From NCBI GenBank assembly GCA_021810905.1, contig JAJZQH010000001.1:1-64000 (forward strand): a stretch of 64,000 bases of DNA, in the 5' to 3' direction. Shown piece after piece: positions 9,690-31,095 of this stretch. Both the position numbers and the translations under genes were made by a program. How positions within the stretch are numbered: the first letter of the stretch is position 1; the number at the start of each line of letters is the position of its first letter. Under the pieces are notes generated by a model, which was not told where the DNA came from, ran no database searches, and was given only the letters and a program-made list of their open reading frames with translations. The DNA comes from a bacterium. Its GTDB lineage: Bacteria; UBA10199; 2-02-FULL-44-16; JAAZCA01.

Positions 9690-11632
<1,943 letters not shown>

Positions 11633-11697
11633 TTCCCCTCCTGAGCTGTAACGTGTCCTGCGAAATTAACCGAGAAAGGCCTGCGGCGCAACATCTA

Positions 11698-12687
11698 TCA
11701 GCGATGGATGGTGCAGATTTGGCCGGCCTTTGTGAAGCGCAGCCCTGCCGGCAAACGGTACTCGCCCGCGGACTTTTGGGCGCAGGCGATATGATCGATG
11801 CGCGCGAGCTGATCTGCGTTGAGGTCCCTTGTGCTGCCGGCCATGCGTTCGAAGGCGATCCGAATCAGACGCCTGCGGATTGACGCGGGAAACGCCTTGT
11901 AGGTGTCGATGTTGATCGCCACACCTTCTCCCCTGGTCGCCGGATCGGCGACCAGGGCCTCATCGAGGGATGCCTCTGCAATGGCGTCCAGCGCGTCGTC
12001 ATCGTCAGCGAGGCGAAGCGCCGTCTGGGAGAGAGTATCCTCGATACGAGGATTGAATTCGCGCAGGAGCGGTATGAGGCGATGTCGCACGGAATTTCTG
12101 CGATATTTGATCTTTGCATTCGTCCTGTCTTCGCGAAACGCGATGCGCCTCTCCTTCGCATATAACGCGATGTCCGATCTCGCTGCATCCAGCAGCGGCC
12201 TCACTATGCGCACGCCTGCCTGCATCGACATAAAAGCCATGCCCCGCAGGCCCGTAAGGCCGGAGCCTCGCAGCAGGTGGAGAAGAACCGTCTCCGCCTG
12301 ATCGCCAGCGTGATGTGCAAGGCAGATCGCAGATGCCCCGTGTTTTTCGGCCAGCTGAGAGAAGAAATCGTATCGCAGGCGCCGGGCAGCGTCCTGGAGG
12401 TTCTTCCCCTTTGGCGGCTTGAGGCTCGCCGTTTCCAAGGGAATGCCGTAGCGCAGGGCCGCTTTTTTTACGAGCGCTTCATCCGCGTTGGACTCCCTGC
12501 CGCGCAACTTGTAATTAACGTGCGCCGCGATGATCGAAAGATTCATGCTCGGTGACAGGCGGCAGAGCAGATCCAGCATGACCATTGAATCGATACCCCC
12601 GGAGACGGCGGCAACTATCCGATCGCCTTTGTCGATGAGGGACCTGCTGACTATGCATCTGCGAAAATTTGGATATAACATAATCAT
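11698..12687 (-). CDS. tilS: tRNA(Ile)-lysidine synthetase
   Basis: TilS modifies cytidine 34 of tRNA-Ile2 to lysidine, which changes its decoding from AUG to AUA. The PP-loop SGGIDS is at residues 29-34, and CLAHHAGDQAETVLLHLLRGSGLTGLRG-type active-site sequence is near 130-155 (HHAGDQAET core). The protein has 329 residues, so it lacks most of the long C-terminal domains of the E. coli enzyme and resembles shorter bacterial forms. ATG 12687 and ATG 12681 are both possible starts and neither has a clear ribosome site. A GTACGTTG word hairpin starts 8 bases upstream of the start codon, so the original leader may have been displaced. Confidence 0.92.
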   Translation of the reverse strand: MIMLYPNFRRCIVSRSLIDKGDRIVAAVSGGIDSMVMLDLLCRLSPSMNLSIIAAHVNYKLRGRESNADEALVKKAALRYGIPLETASLKPPKGKNLQDAARRLRYDFFSQLAEKHGASAICLAHHAGDQAETVLLHLLRGSGLTGLRGMAFMSMQAGVRIVRPLLDAARSDIALYAKERRIAFREDRTNAKIKYRRNSVRHRLIPLLREFNPRIEDTLSQTALRLADDDDALDAIAEASLDEALVADPATRGEGVAINIDTYKAFPASIRRRLIRIAFERMAGSTRDLNADQLARIDHIACAQKSAGEYRLPAGLRFTKAGQICTIHR

Positions 12688-12694
12688 ATGAAAG

Positions 12695-12834
12695 AGTACG
12701 TTAGTACGTTAGTACTTTGGTACAACATCTTGTGGAATATCTCGTTAGGTCACTGCAGTTGTACCAACGTACTAACGTACCAACGTACCAACGTACGTAT
12801 TTCAGATTTTGTACTATCGTACTATCGTACGGTT
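12695..12834. repeat. Word-repeat hairpin (GTACGTTG family) plus an extra GTACGATA block
   Basis: The left arm (12695-12726) and right arm (12758-12798) are inverted copies of the GTACGTTG word with a loop of about 30 bases. A further block (12807-12834) uses GTACTATC words and is preceded by TTTCAGATTTTG. It overlaps the end of the carbonic anhydrase gene and supplies its stop codon. Confidence 0.9.
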
Positions 12835-13334
12835 TTCTTGTACTGCGCGGCAAGCTCGGCGTAACTCCCGGCGTAACCAGCGACGACGCGGGACTCTTCG
12901 TCGGAGACCTTCCTGCTGACCTTGGCCGGCATGCCCAGGACTAGCGAGCGCGGCGGGATGATGGTTCCTTCAGTCACTACGGCGCCGGCTCCTATAATGC
13001 TCTCGTCGCCGATCGTTGCTCCGTTCATCACTACGGCGCCCATGCCGATGAGGACGCGATCGCCTATCGTACAGCCGTGGAGTATCGCTCGGTGGCCGAC
13101 CGTGACGTCATCGCCAACGACGAGTCCCTCGCCCATATCGGTGTGAAGCACGCAGAGATCCTGGATGTTCGTGCGGCAGCCTATACGGATAGATCCTATA
13201 TCTGCGCGCACGACTGCGTTGAACCAGAGGCTGGAGCCTTCGCTCACGAAGGCATTGCCGATCACGTGTGCGCCTTCGGCTATAAAGCAGCTGGCGTGAA
13301 TTTGAGGGCTCTTTCCTCCGAATGGGGAGATCAT
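12822..13334 (-). CDS. Gamma-carbonic anhydrase family protein (YrdA/CaiE-like hexapeptide protein)
   Basis: This 170-residue left-handed beta-helix protein belongs to the gamma-carbonic anhydrase family, which forms trimers with a metal at each subunit interface. The three metal-ligand histidines are visible at H64 (VLHTD), H81 (TVGHR) and H86 (ILHGC). Hexapeptide repeats run from about 30 to 140. Whether it is an active anhydrase or a ferripyochelin-binding-type homologue cannot be told. The start at 13334 has a GGAGG site and overlaps the vanZ-like stop (ATGA). The last codons TVR-stop lie inside a GTACGATA word repeat, so the C-terminus probably ends at a repeat-derived stop codon. Confidence 0.9.
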   Translation of the reverse strand: MISPFGGKSPQIHASCFIAEGAHVIGNAFVSEGSSLWFNAVVRADIGSIRIGCRTNIQDLCVLHTDMGEGLVVGDDVTVGHRAILHGCTIGDRVLIGMGAVVMNGATIGDESIIGAGAVVTEGTIIPPRSLVLGMPAKVSRKVSDEESRVVAGYAGSYAELAAQYKKTVR

Positions 13335-15745: not shown

Positions 15746-16093
15746 TTATGTCGAGGTCAGCAGTTTCACGAATTTGTCTCGATACAGGAGTATGAGGAAC
15801 TGCTGCAGCCTTTGCTCGGCGGGTTCCACGCGTTCGCCGAAATGTTCGCGCATTGCGTTGACGATTTCGGTAAAGCGCGTTTTCCCGTCCATGCGATGCC
15901 ACGCGAAGCTGCCGATCTCATCGAGCTTAACGCGGATGTGAGGCCGCTTGAGCCTGGGCTGCAGCCAGCGCGCGAGCGGCCCCTTTCTGAAACGAGGGAC
16001 AAGAAGGACGGCCCGTTCTTCCGGGCCGTCCTCCCATTTCATATCGTGCATTGGAACTACGTCATGCCATTGCTGAAGGCGGTGCTGGTTCAT
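15746..16093 (-). CDS. PqqD-like (RRE-type) small protein
   Basis: This 115-residue protein resembles the PqqD family, small winged-helix chaperones that bind peptide leaders for radical SAM and other modifying enzymes. The match covers about residues 30-112: VPRF near the start, IRVKLDEIGSFAWHRMDG in the middle, then G-x-T-F-x-EIV and a helix-rich C-terminus. The start at 16093 lies within the last 32 bases of the OPT transporter gene and has a GGGAGT site, so the two genes overlap and are likely coupled. miaB follows 20 bases later. No precursor peptide gene was recognised nearby. A structural role with the transporter or a peptide is a guess. Confidence 0.7.
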   Translation of the reverse strand: MNQHRLQQWHDVVPMHDMKWEDGPEERAVLLVPRFRKGPLARWLQPRLKRPHIRVKLDEIGSFAWHRMDGKTRFTEIVNAMREHFGERVEPAEQRLQQFLILLYRDKFVKLLTST

Positions 16094-28542: not shown

Positions 28543-28670
28543 GTGAGCGGCACTAACACAGGCCAGTCAATATAATCAACGGTATCCATAAAATTTTTTC
28601 TCGATCACGCAACTTTGCCTTACTGCCCTGCCGATAATTGTGACGAGGGGAAAGCCCCCGGAGGAGATTC

Positions 28671-29066
28671 ATGATAGCAGTCATAGGCATAATGGCATGC
28701 GTCAGCGTTGCGGTAGGAGTCATTATCGGCGGCGGTATTGCCGCAGTTGGTACCGGTTATGCCATTTACAACGGGGAACGAAGCTCTGCACAGGCGGAAG
28801 ATATCGCCAATAAACAGCGGGCGATGCAGGAACAGGCCCAGACAAAGGCGGAAAACCGCGCCAAGGCGATGAAGCTCGTGCAGGAGCGGCAGGCGGCATC
28901 GAGCCTGCTCAAGACGCAGCAGGCGGTCGGAGGCTCCATCATGCTCAACGAGATCCTGGCCGAACGGGCCGAGCTCAAGGCGAACCGCACCCGGATGGAA
29001 AACAGTATCAACAAACCGTCACAGAAGCTCAGTCACGATATGGGCACGCCTCAGCAGAAGATATAA
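28671..29066 (+). CDS. Small membrane-anchored coiled-coil protein (accessory block, protein 1)
   Basis: This 131-residue protein was not recognised. An N-terminal hydrophobic stretch (about 2-33, rich in Gly, Val, Ile and Ala) suggests a membrane segment. A long Gln/Ala/Lys/Glu helix with coiled-coil character follows (YNGERSSAQAEDIANKQRAM onward). The ATG has a GGAGGAG site. It is the first of three consecutive small genes on the plus strand, spaced 11 and 15 bases apart, so they form one operon that ends at the terminator at 30262. The overall design (hydrophobic head, helical Q/A-rich tail) is shared with proteins 2 and 3. Confidence 0.72.
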   Translation: MIAVIGIMACVSVAVGVIIGGGIAAVGTGYAIYNGERSSAQAEDIANKQRAMQEQAQTKAENRAKAMKLVQERQAASSLLKTQQAVGGSIMLNEILAERAELKANRTRMENSINKPSQKLSHDMGTPQQKI

Positions 29067-29077
29067 AGGAGAACACC

Positions 29078-29677
29078 ATGATAAGCGCAGGCATTGGAGA
29101 GACCCCTTACCCGACTCAACAGGCTGGATATCCGCAGCAGGGATACGGCTCGCCATATGGTTACGGCGGCGGCCCCTCCTATGTGCAGCCGACGATGCCC
29201 GCATACAACCCCGGTGTCGGACTCTCGGGGCCCAGCATAGCGATCGAGACCAATAAGGTTGATTACGACAAAGTCGCACCGATCATGTGGGGTAACGTGG
29301 GCGTGCAGGCGTTGGCTGTCATCGGCGGGATCTTTGCTCAGAACTGGGCAGCTAACGTAGCGATCAAGGGCATGGAAACACAGCTGGCTCTGGGTCAGTC
29401 GTACTATGCGACGCAGGACAGCATTGCCGGCAAGCAGCAGGAAGTGGCCATACAGCAGCTCATGGTCCAGGGAAAGGCGATAGACGCGCAGGTACAGATG
29501 CATACCGAGCAGGTGGATCACGAGAAGGCGATGGCCGAGCTTGAGGGAAATGCGCAGGCGCGAATCACGGAACTTCAGGAGAAATACAAGACCAAGAGGG
29601 CGGAGATTTATTCGGTGACCGATGCATTCAGCAGCCGTGGCGGCTGGGATATGGGCTCGCCGGCTTTCGCAGCATAA
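29078..29677 (+). CDS. Small Y/G/Q-rich and helical protein (accessory block, protein 2)
   Basis: This 199-residue protein was not recognised. Residues 10-45 are low-complexity and rich in Tyr, Gly, Pro and Gln (GYPQQGYGSPYGYGGG). A hydrophobic segment covers about 68-92. A long helix with coiled-coil character follows, containing LALGQSYYATQDSIAGKQQE. Protein 3 carries a matching stretch (LKSGQSQYAHQDRMAEIQKE), so the two are paralogous in their helical part. The start has an AAAGGAGAA site. There is no signal peptidase site, so export by a standard Sec signal is unlikely. Confidence 0.74.
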   Translation: MISAGIGETPYPTQQAGYPQQGYGSPYGYGGGPSYVQPTMPAYNPGVGLSGPSIAIETNKVDYDKVAPIMWGNVGVQALAVIGGIFAQNWAANVAIKGMETQLALGQSYYATQDSIAGKQQEVAIQQLMVQGKAIDAQVQMHTEQVDHEKAMAELEGNAQARITELQEKYKTKRAEIYSVTDAFSSRGGWDMGSPAFAA

Positions 29678-29692
29678 CGGCAGGAGGAGATC

Positions 29693-30238
29693 ATGATAGC
29701 AGCAGGTCAAGTAGCACCGACAGATTATAATTTAGGAACTCAATGGGGAGAAACGATAAATTCTCCAGCTCCAACCATGGCCGCAGATGCACCGGCTGGC
29801 AGCGCTGCGCCTGCCGCGGAAGGTGGCGGCATCGGCGCTCCCATGGGCGCAATGCTCGCCATGAACGCAGGCGCGGCGATTTCGGGCATCATAAACAGTT
29901 ACTACGGCGCTAAGGTGAGTGAGATCACGGCGGACGCGCAGCTGAAATCCGGTCAGTCCCAGTACGCACATCAGGACAGGATGGCCGAGATCCAGAAAGA
30001 GACCCAGATTAACTTGCTCAAGAAGCAGTCGGAAGCAATTGAGTACAAGGCCGAACACAACGATGCCTACCTCAAGTCGGTTGAAAAGCGCAAAGAGGCA
30101 GAGGACAACCTGGCGTTCGCAAAGGAACAGGTGAAGGTGAAGAACTCATACGAAAAAGACCTCAAGACCTACGACAAGGCGGTCGACAAACTCTTCGGAA
30201 GGCACGGCTACTACAGCGGCAGCCCGGTCACAGTGTAA
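29693..30238 (+). CDS. Small helical protein, paralogue of protein 2 (accessory block, protein 3)
   Basis: This 181-residue protein was not recognised. A disordered N-terminus (Ala/Pro/Gly-rich, about 1-48) leads into a Gly/Ala/Met-rich hydrophobic segment (about 49-70). A long charged helix follows, with GQSQYAHQDRMAEIQKE shared with protein 2. The C-terminus ends in GRHGYYSGSPVTV, while protein 2 ends with GGWDMGSPAFAA, so a G-SP tail motif also recurs. The start has a CAGGAGGAG site. A strong terminator begins about 24 bases after the stop. Secreted or structural roles are possible but unproven. Confidence 0.74.
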   Translation: MIAAGQVAPTDYNLGTQWGETINSPAPTMAADAPAGSAAPAAEGGGIGAPMGAMLAMNAGAAISGIINSYYGAKVSEITADAQLKSGQSQYAHQDRMAEIQKETQINLLKKQSEAIEYKAEHNDAYLKSVEKRKEAEDNLAFAKEQVKVKNSYEKDLKTYDKAVDKLFGRHGYYSGSPVTV

Positions 30239-30261
30239 GACAACCTGATCGACTATCACCG

Positions 30262-30293
30262 AGGGGATGACGATAGTCATCCCCTTTTCTTTT
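30262..30293 (+). terminator. Rho-independent terminator after the three-gene small-protein operon
   Basis: A 9-base-pair stem (GGGGATGAC / GTCATCCCC) with a GATA tetraloop is followed by TTTTCTTTT. It ends the 28671-30238 operon. The U-tract overlaps the -35 box of the next promoter, so two transcription units abut exactly. Confidence 0.93.
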
Positions 30294-30320
30294 GACACTG
30301 AGCCGGATTGCCTTTAAAAT
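30292..30320 (+). promoter_or_regulatory. Sigma70-type promoter giving a nearly leaderless mRNA for 30331
   Basis: TTGACA (30292-30297), a 17-base spacer and TAAAAT (30315-30320) make a near-consensus promoter. The expected start point is about 30327, only some 4 bases before the ATG at 30331. There is no Shine-Dalgarno site, so initiation would be leaderless. Confidence 0.82.
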
Positions 30321-30330
30321 TACAATACTT

Positions 30331-31095
30331 ATGCCATTTGAACTGAACAGATTCGACGTGATGGAGCACCTCTGGGAGACGATAGAGAAGACCCCTGACG
30401 GCCATCACATCCGTTACACCGAACTCGATATCGATCAACTCTGGTGGATGGGCTTCGTCGATACTGAAAACGTGAGTCTTGAGGAGTGGATCGCCCTCTT
30501 TCAACCGCTGCGCCAACCGGATGGTACGTATCTGCTGAACAAGGACGATTTTCTCTCGCTCGACCGCTATCGGTACAAAGGCGAGATCCGCATCCCCTTT
30601 GATCCGATGCAGATCAACGAGGGTAAGTACACCGACGAAGGCCTGGATCAGCTGGTGGATGCGTCCATCGCTCCATCCTGCAGGCTTTCGCGCGAGGAGG
30701 TCCGCAAATTCGTGGATAGCCTCAAGAAGGATTTCCGCCAGCCGGACGGACTCATACTCATAAAGACGCCGGCCAAACAGCGCGTCAAGGCGCTGCTCGA
30801 CGACAACCCTTCGCCGCTGCGCAACCTTGAAATACTCATGGATCAGATGATAGCCGCGCGCGGTGCCGATGCCCATGCGATGATCGAGGAGGCTGAGGTG
30901 GGCGCGGCCGCCATGGAGGCCGCGCGGCAGGCCTCGCGCTTTACGGCAAAGCCCGTGAGCCGTACCGAGCAGAAGGCGATGGGTTTGAAGGCCCTTGAGA
31001 AGGCGCGGCACGCTAAAGTCGCCGATGAAGTCGAAGGCGCCCCGAAGACCGAACTCAAGAAGATCCGCCGCTCTCGCAAGGGAATGAGGGGGTAG
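30331..31095 (+). CDS. Unknown protein upstream of a B12-binding radical SAM enzyme
   Basis: This 254-residue protein was not recognised. The N-terminal half is mixed alpha/beta with many aromatic and acidic residues (TELDIDQLWWMGFVD, YLLNKDDFLSLDRYRYKG). It has internally similar segments: QPLRQPDGTYL and DFRQPDGLIL both carry the RQPDG core. The C-terminal 75 residues are Ala/Lys/Arg-rich and helical, ending in a basic tail (KKIRRSRKGMRG) that could bind nucleic acid or acidic partners. The start at 30331 (MPFELNRF) is chosen because a consensus promoter lies immediately upstream. The radical SAM gene begins 3 bases after its stop, so they share an mRNA and probably a pathway. Confidence 0.78.
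   Translation: MPFELNRFDVMEHLWETIEKTPDGHHIRYTELDIDQLWWMGFVDTENVSLEEWIALFQPLRQPDGTYLLNKDDFLSLDRYRYKGEIRIPFDPMQINEGKYTDEGLDQLVDASIAPSCRLSREEVRKFVDSLKKDFRQPDGLILIKTPAKQRVKALLDDNPSPLRNLEILMDQMIAARGADAHAMIEEAEVGAAAMEAARQASRFTAKPVSRTEQKAMGLKALEKARHAKVADEVEGAPKTELKKIRRSRKGMRG

Follow-up and report, generated by a model that had tools for sequence, protein, structure and literature searches.

A 28-nt promoter-like element links three small proteins of no established family to type III secretion genes in an uncultured class of 'Deltaproteobacteria'

What is made by three small adjacent genes whose hydrophobic, helical products belong to no established family? The question is raised by genes P1, P2 and P3, which lie on the + strand at 28671-30238 of the DNA analyzed here, a 64,000-nt stretch (positions 1 to 64,000, forward strand, of contig JAJZQH010000001.1 in assembly GCA_021810905.1; hereafter the window). 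A preliminary description had presented them as an operon of paralogous proteins that could form a filament, pore, or injected or structural complex. Our analysis showed that a promoter-like element 5' of P1 recurs class-wide at type III secretion system (T3SS) genes, and we conclude with high confidence that the T3SS regulon of these bacteria, an uncultured class represented by 'Deltaproteobacteria' metagenome-assembled genomes (MAGs), includes P1-P3. Co-regulation with the secretion apparatus is the strong result of the analysis. The fuller role that we favor for P1-P3, as secreted, membrane-active proteins of translocator or tip type, is proposed tentatively.

Results

The promoter-like element of P1-P3 and its recurrence at T3SS loci

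The element, CAACTT-N16-CGATAA (full sequence CAACTTTGCCTTACTGCCCTGCCGATAA; 28610-28637, + strand), ends 33 nt 5' of the P1 start and has the GCCGATAA-type -10 sequence of FliA (sigma-28) promoters. Its spacing between -35 and -10 is not the canonical FliA spacing, since the 28-nt form found here exceeds the 26-nt form by 2 nt. Comparison of upstream regions revealed GCAACTT...CCGATAA in front of many clusters. In the genome to which the window belongs, the pattern CAACTTN{13,17}CGATAA gave 81 matches vs 1 for the reversed control. With CAACTTN{14,16}CGATAA, 8-100 matches were found in each of 46 genomes of the class (our own included) and 0-3 in each of 14 genomes from outside it, while reversed controls gave 0 to 4. 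The 67 distinct sites whose surroundings were examined measured 26 nt (n=36), 28 nt (n=20), 27 nt (n=10) or 25 nt (n=1).

The 28-nt form marks two kinds of locus. The first contains P4, a conserved gene located 3' of the P1-P3 cluster in the window: in a same-strand scan within 3.5 kb (125,423 bases; reversed control 0), the 28-nt form was upstream of 24 of 40 P4 loci, with 26 sites of 28 nt and none of 26 nt. The second contains the T3SS gene sctJ. We examined 30 of the 41 sctJ/fliF matches. Of the 27 sctJ loci among them, 21 had the 28-nt form (37 such sites in all) vs none of three flagellar fliF loci, with 0 control matches; one of the remaining sctJ loci had a 27-nt site and five had no site at all. 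In our genome, the T3SS operon itself holds the 28-nt form twice, once before a gene for a rod- or needle-like protein and once before a gene for a hydrophobic protein of 140 aa. Because the 28-nt element is common to the P1, P4 and sctJ loci, P1-P3 belong by their promoter to a class-wide T3SS regulon.

The T3SS genes and their sigma factor

The genome encodes a single FHIPEP protein, which passed the SctV model TIGR01399 (792.7 bits; cut-off 692.25) and failed the FlhA model (692.6; cut-off 772.1), and the T3SS is therefore non-flagellar. The assignments of SctJ and SctN are less sharp: SctJ scored 136.5 bits against TIGR02544, under the cut-off of 161.95, and 43.3 bits as fliF, and the ATPase exceeded both the FliI_clade2 (646.7; cut-off 629.8) and SctN (629.4; cut-off 604.75) thresholds. 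The genes sctV and sctU and the sctJ operon are found on three different contigs. The operon order, rod-like gene-TPR-sctJ-hydrophobic gene-sigma-fliG-like-sctL-sctN, is kept in the class: in the 20 sctJ loci that were fetched, some of them incomplete through contig ends or the extent fetched, the TPR gene, sctJ, the FliA/WhiG-type sigma gene and the fliG-like gene were present in 20, 20, 20 and 19, respectively. Within this genome, FliA/WhiG is matched best by the operon sigma (L118:11483-12355; handles in G, C and L are ours for genomes, contigs and loci), whose 138 bits are under the family cut-off of 189.6, and four further stretches of the sigma-70 family match. One of these four, a second sigma-70-family factor encoded near sctV (L084:2906-3925, contig C18), may account for the 26- vs 28-nt spacings.

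From its C-terminus we take the first gene of the operon to encode a rod- or needle-like protein; it had no Pfam match as a known needle or rod protein, and its best match in the PDB had an E value of 0.53. The 140-aa hydrophobic protein (L118:10458-10880) is conserved, and in much of the class its gene, with a 28-nt element of its own, comes next after sctJ; it had no Pfam match and is a T3SS part still without assignment. We considered P1 as kin of this hydrophobic protein and P2/P3 as kin of the rod-like protein, and rejected both, the profiles being without similarity. Also beside sctV, two adjacent genes for HEAT-repeat proteins (11579-12979 and 13062-14744 of L084, which is G000:C18:6001-26000) have nearly identical N-terminal regions (MSSVN...) of ~100 residues, as though a single head had been duplicated and joined to two different bodies, and a shared secretion signal is possible.

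Genes downstream of the other sites

Most of the genes that follow other sites encode uncharacterized proteins, and the first 40 residues of these were enriched in small and polar residues relative to control open reading frames (ORFs) of the same genome, both for 28-nt sites (16 genes, p 2.9e-4) and for 26-nt sites (29 genes, p 4.7e-8). This test was confined to genes of at least 90 aa starting within 110 nt of the site, which retained 51 of the 66 sites of 26-28 nt. Judged by composition, such N-termini would be expected of type III substrates. One 28-nt site (G000:C2:92933-92960) precedes a gene for a lytic transglycosylase with an SLT domain (L163:199-891); lytic transglycosylases are usual companions of envelope-spanning secretion machines. 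At L132 and L134 (contig C4 of G000, near 15754 and 72472), the proteins encoded after two 28-nt sites begin almost identically (MHCGGDTRV...), the first frame being short in both, and these genes appear to be duplicated or decayed and effector-like.

Sequence features of P1-P3

All three ORFs were present on the + strand as first described. P1 (28671-29066; 131 aa) has a glycine-rich hydrophobic segment from residue 2, with a hydropathy maximum (KD19) of 2.82 at residues 1-19, followed by a helix rich in Q, A, K and E and a G-x-P tail. P2 (29078-29677; 199 aa) begins with a disordered head rich in G, Y, P and Q, followed by a hydrophobic segment at about residues 69-87 (KD19 maximum 1.61), a long helix and a G-S-P tail, and its paralogue P3 (29693-30238; 181 aa) has a disordered head, a hydrophobic segment at about residues 49-67 (KD19 maximum 1.41), a Q/K/E helix and a G-S-P tail. 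Thus the common plan that had been proposed, a head and then a long helix, was recovered in all three, though not in identical form, since P1 is hydrophobic already at residue 2 and P2 and P3 have ~50-70 residues rich in Gly, Pro, Ser and Gln ahead of the hydrophobic stretch. The predicted structure of P2 was poor (pLDDT 53.7), with residues 1-86 mostly unstructured and a low-confidence helix at 87-185. Hydrophobic segments combined with a helical region, as in known T3SS translocators, were found in P1-P3 by KD19, the helix of P2 coming only from this low-confidence model.

The expression signals noted earlier were confirmed: GGAGG or AGGAG stands directly 5' of each of the three starts, and the P1-P3 transcript is ended by an intrinsic terminator (30261-30286, + strand; -20.4 kcal/mol, z -4.66) whose stability was equaled by none of 200 shuffles.

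In searches of Pfam, NCBIfam, PHROGs and PADLOC, P1-P3 gave weak, helix-type matches only, under the curated cut-off where one exists, and their placement in no established family was thereby upheld. The sole PADLOC match was weak (P1 to OloA, E 0.0065), and a defense-system identity was rejected. The preliminary description had also seen no recognizable domain or secretion signal. Domain libraries indeed place no domain, but the small, polar and unstructured heads of P2 and P3 resemble what would be expected of type III substrates.

Kinship among the three proteins and their shared tails

We found that P2 and P3 are paralogues: their local alignment score was 110, whereas with three ways of shuffling the best of 1000 shuffles scored 72, 76 and 68. 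The scores of P1 with P2 (49) and P3 (48) were weak, being reached by 12 to 89 of 1000 shuffles. At the level of family profiles, P1 aligned with P2/P3 along the helix and on into the G-x-P tail, with an hhalign probability of 84.6% (E 6.7e-6) that helical composition may have inflated. The claim that all three are paralogous therefore stood for P2 and P3, and P1 is probably a paralogue of these.

The GQS-Y-A-QD block ascribed to P2 and P3 was verified (LGQSYYATQD and SGQSQYAHQD, respectively), as were their G-SP tails (DMGSPAFAA and YSGSPVTV). P1 ends in a tail of the same kind, DMGTPQQKI, which had not been listed, and the likeness is evident at the DNA level, since 13 of 14 bases (GATATGGGC-CGCC) are identical between the P1 tail (29037-29050) and the P2 tail (29648-29661). 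These tails recur class-wide. Of 57 small ORFs located before P4, 38 contain an aromatic residue and a following Gly within their ~16 C-terminal residues (in 500 shuffles, 10.0 on average and at most 18), and 24 carry G-x-P close to the C-terminus (in shuffles, 3.0 on average and at most 8).

The conserved partner gene P4 and the distribution of the cluster

P4 (30331-31095, + strand; 254 aa; C-terminal LKKIRRSRKGMRG) sits 3' of the terminator and was absent from the earlier gene list; the coordinates given there excluded both P4 and the promoter-like element. Its start, the ATG at 30331, was picked from an alignment of 35 homologues. Just 5' of it lies a sigma-70-type match, TTGACA-17-TAAAAT (30292-30320, + strand; 11/12 consensus), which is a consensus match only, 2 being found in the region and 1.4 expected. 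Library scans yielded no domain match for P4, and its best PDB match by sequence had an E value of only 0.22. The predicted structure (mean pLDDT 73.4, ~90 over most of residues 10-178) consists of helix-loop-strand-helix repeats in two lobes. When this fold was compared with all of the PDB, EF-hand proteins dominated the lists, weakly (best Foldseek E 0.078, best Z 4.7). As read from the sequence, the loops retain only a recurring P-D-G and are without the ligands that bind calcium in canonical EF hands. P4 is not a TPR protein; an LcrH/SycD-like TPR gene (34.6 bits, cut-off 104.8) is found instead in the sctJ operon.

A search of 60 genomes detected P4 in 38: our own, 37 of 45 class relatives and none of 14 genomes outside the class. 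In the same set, P2 was found in nine genomes and P3 in six, again counting our own; P3 matches in G053 (outside the class) and on G000:C20 were judged to be chance and were not used. In G001, G002, G003 and G008, P4 is preceded by genes resembling P2 and P3 together with a P1-like gene for a hydrophobic protein, and the neighbors are what we take, mostly by recognition of their sequences, to be mutS and, where the stretch allows, rpsA-sppA-ihf-HIT-lapA. In farther relatives of the class, the small genes before P4 vary in sequence and number and their position is kept. The 24 clusters with the promoter element contain 57 small ORFs, 1-4 per cluster, a count that includes a few sure caller errors, among them a frame in L023 that overlaps another and a pair of short ORFs in L192. 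Several relatives of P1 are likewise hydrophobic from residue 2 (MVGVGAAV...). Altogether, P1-P3 are a variable set of 1-4 genes linked class-wide to a position before the conserved P4. One relative (G014; L063 and L064) has five P4 matches in two groups near contig ends, several of them preceded by other small genes. Those relatives that bear a name are MAGs called 'Deltaproteobacteria bacterium', several of them from groundwater by isolate name (e.g., NC_groundwater_1217 and RIFCSPHIGHO2_01_FULL_43_49).

Discussion

Membership of the regulon leaves the question of what P1-P3 do. An exposed, membrane-active part of the T3SS fits best, because polar unstructured heads (in P2 and P3), a glycine-rich hydrophobic segment and a long amphipathic helix are combined with fast evolution in a conserved slot. 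In the mechanism that we propose, the 28-nt element at P1 and at the apparatus genes is most likely recognized by the FliA/WhiG-type sigma factor that the T3SS core operon encodes; with one sigma for both promoters, the small proteins would be made together with the machine. P2 and P3, and probably also P1, would then be exported by the T3SS via unstructured N-terminal signals, the glycine-rich hydrophobic segments would enter the target membrane, and the long amphipathic helices would pack together, giving an assembly of translocator or needle-tip type that has no sequence relation to the translocators already known. P4, which is separately transcribed, may be a cytosolic chaperone or gatekeeper that holds the helices of P1-P3, possibly by the Y-x-Y-G/G-x-P tail. 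The earlier suggestion of a filament, pore, or injected or structural complex was a guess; the promoter common to T3SS genes lends it indirect support and suggests which machine would be involved.

Several findings weigh against a translocator- or tip-like role. Co-regulation is not co-function, and the hydrophobic start of P1 at residue 2 is better suited to an inner-membrane protein than to a type III substrate. No known translocator (SctE/SctB), tip or needle family matched P1-P3 up to an E value of 1 in the Pfam and NCBIfam scans, a PDB sequence search with the P2/P3 family found no match, and neither the P1 nor the P2/P3 profile aligned with the T3SS-operon proteins compared, two in number. 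The pLDDT of the P2 model is low (53.7). No class II TPR chaperone gene adjoins P1-P3, and the terminator together with the sigma-70-like promoter of P4 implies that P4 is not by design on the P1-P3 transcript. Furthermore, the 28-nt site is missing at 16 of 40 P4 loci, some of them cut by contig ends or secondary copies and others genuinely without it, and the P4 loci L080 and L081/L197 have no such small genes ahead of P4.

Of the other explanations, the one that survives best, which we nevertheless consider unlikely, is that P1-P3 serve the apparatus as structural or accessory components and are kept, unsecreted, in the producing cell at the inner membrane or sorting platform. An inner-membrane location would suit P1 and those relatives that are hydrophobic from residue 2, and the 28-nt class of the element is that of the apparatus genes; however, the heads of P2 and P3 are long, unstructured and polar, and the number of genes varies from 1 to 4 while their sequences diverge fast (P2 in 9 of 60 genomes vs P4 in 38 of 60), as expected of exposed parts. 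It is also rather unlikely that P1-P3 are membrane-active effectors sent into the target cell, one operon among the many effector genes of the regulon. Many other sites do precede uncharacterized proteins with small and polar N-termini, but this cluster is kept class-wide with a conserved partner gene and carries the 28-nt form of apparatus operons.

We regard as improbable that P1-P3 share only the sigma factor with the T3SS and serve another envelope process, i.e., adhesion, predation contact or cell-surface assembly. FliA of other bacteria is said (PMC4866697) to govern numerous behaviors besides motility, and one 28-nt site stands before the lytic transglycosylase gene, but the class-wide tie of this form to sctJ and P4 loci argues against such a role. 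Finally, an origin as relics of phage DNA-ejection or spanin genes was rejected as highly improbable, since the matches concerned (Pfam T7_gp14 at 15.7 bits against a cut-off of 27; among PHROGs, an Rz-like spanin at 23.6 bits, and internal virion and pilot proteins at 17.8 and 15.8 bits) are under cut-off or of coiled-coil type, the locus has the same chromosomal neighbors, stably, in relatives from the family, and a search of 2.9 million viral contigs did not find the P4 family.

Translocator- or tip-like P1-P3 could be part of a wider scheme, which is conceivable and at present doubtful: a class-wide, dispersed T3SS in which a FliA/WhiG-type sigma uses a two-spacing code, with 28-nt sites for the apparatus and a new, non-homologous translocator set (P1-P3 and their relatives, partnered by the EF-hand-like P4) and 26-nt sites for dozens of unrecognized effectors, possibly acting against or with other microbes. 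The promoter element turns orphan proteins into a readable regulon: our genome has ~80 sites, the 46 genomes of the class have 8-100 each, and the site list is a direct set of candidates for machine parts and effectors of the T3SS in this lineage. If P1-P3 are translocators, they would represent a type with no detected sequence relation to the known ones.

The hydrophobic translocators SctE and SctB are the YopB/IpaB and YopD/IpaC types. Like P1-P3, they are small-operon sets of several hydrophobic, helical and fast-evolving proteins whose control is joined to that of the T3SS. In contrast to these, P1-P3 have no sequence match with them, are shorter (131-199 aa), have the Y-x-Y-G/G-x-P tail in common, and adjoin the conserved, weakly EF-hand-like P4 in place of a TPR chaperone gene. 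In Pseudomonas syringae, a single alternative sigma factor, HrpL, coordinates most T3SS genes (PMC5263251); HrpL is an extracytoplasmic function sigma factor, whereas the candidate here is of the FliA/WhiG type and is encoded within the T3SS core operon. Escherichia coli FliA promoters have a GCCGATAA -10 and an AACTT-type -35, with TCAACTTCCTGCTTTTCCTGCCGATATT as a motif listed in PMC4183435. Both the -10 and the -35 found here are of these types, and our 26-nt sites match the spacing of that motif; the form at P1-P3 and sctJ differs in being 2 nt longer (28 nt) and in preceding T3SS rather than flagellar genes. The 'needleless' T3SS* of Myxococcus xanthus, described in PMC12075869 as one large gene cluster without secretin, needle or translocon, is likewise a T3SS-like machine of a non-pathogen from a former deltaproteobacterial lineage. 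Unlike T3SS*, the system studied here has sctJ, sctU and sctV on three contigs, and its rod- or needle-like first gene and P1-P3 share a promoter element. Because sigma-driven T3SS regulons and T3SS* are already known, and our searches of open-licence PMC papers found no account of a T3SS for this lineage, we class P1-P3 as a new protein set within an already known kind of system, outside every known translocator family.
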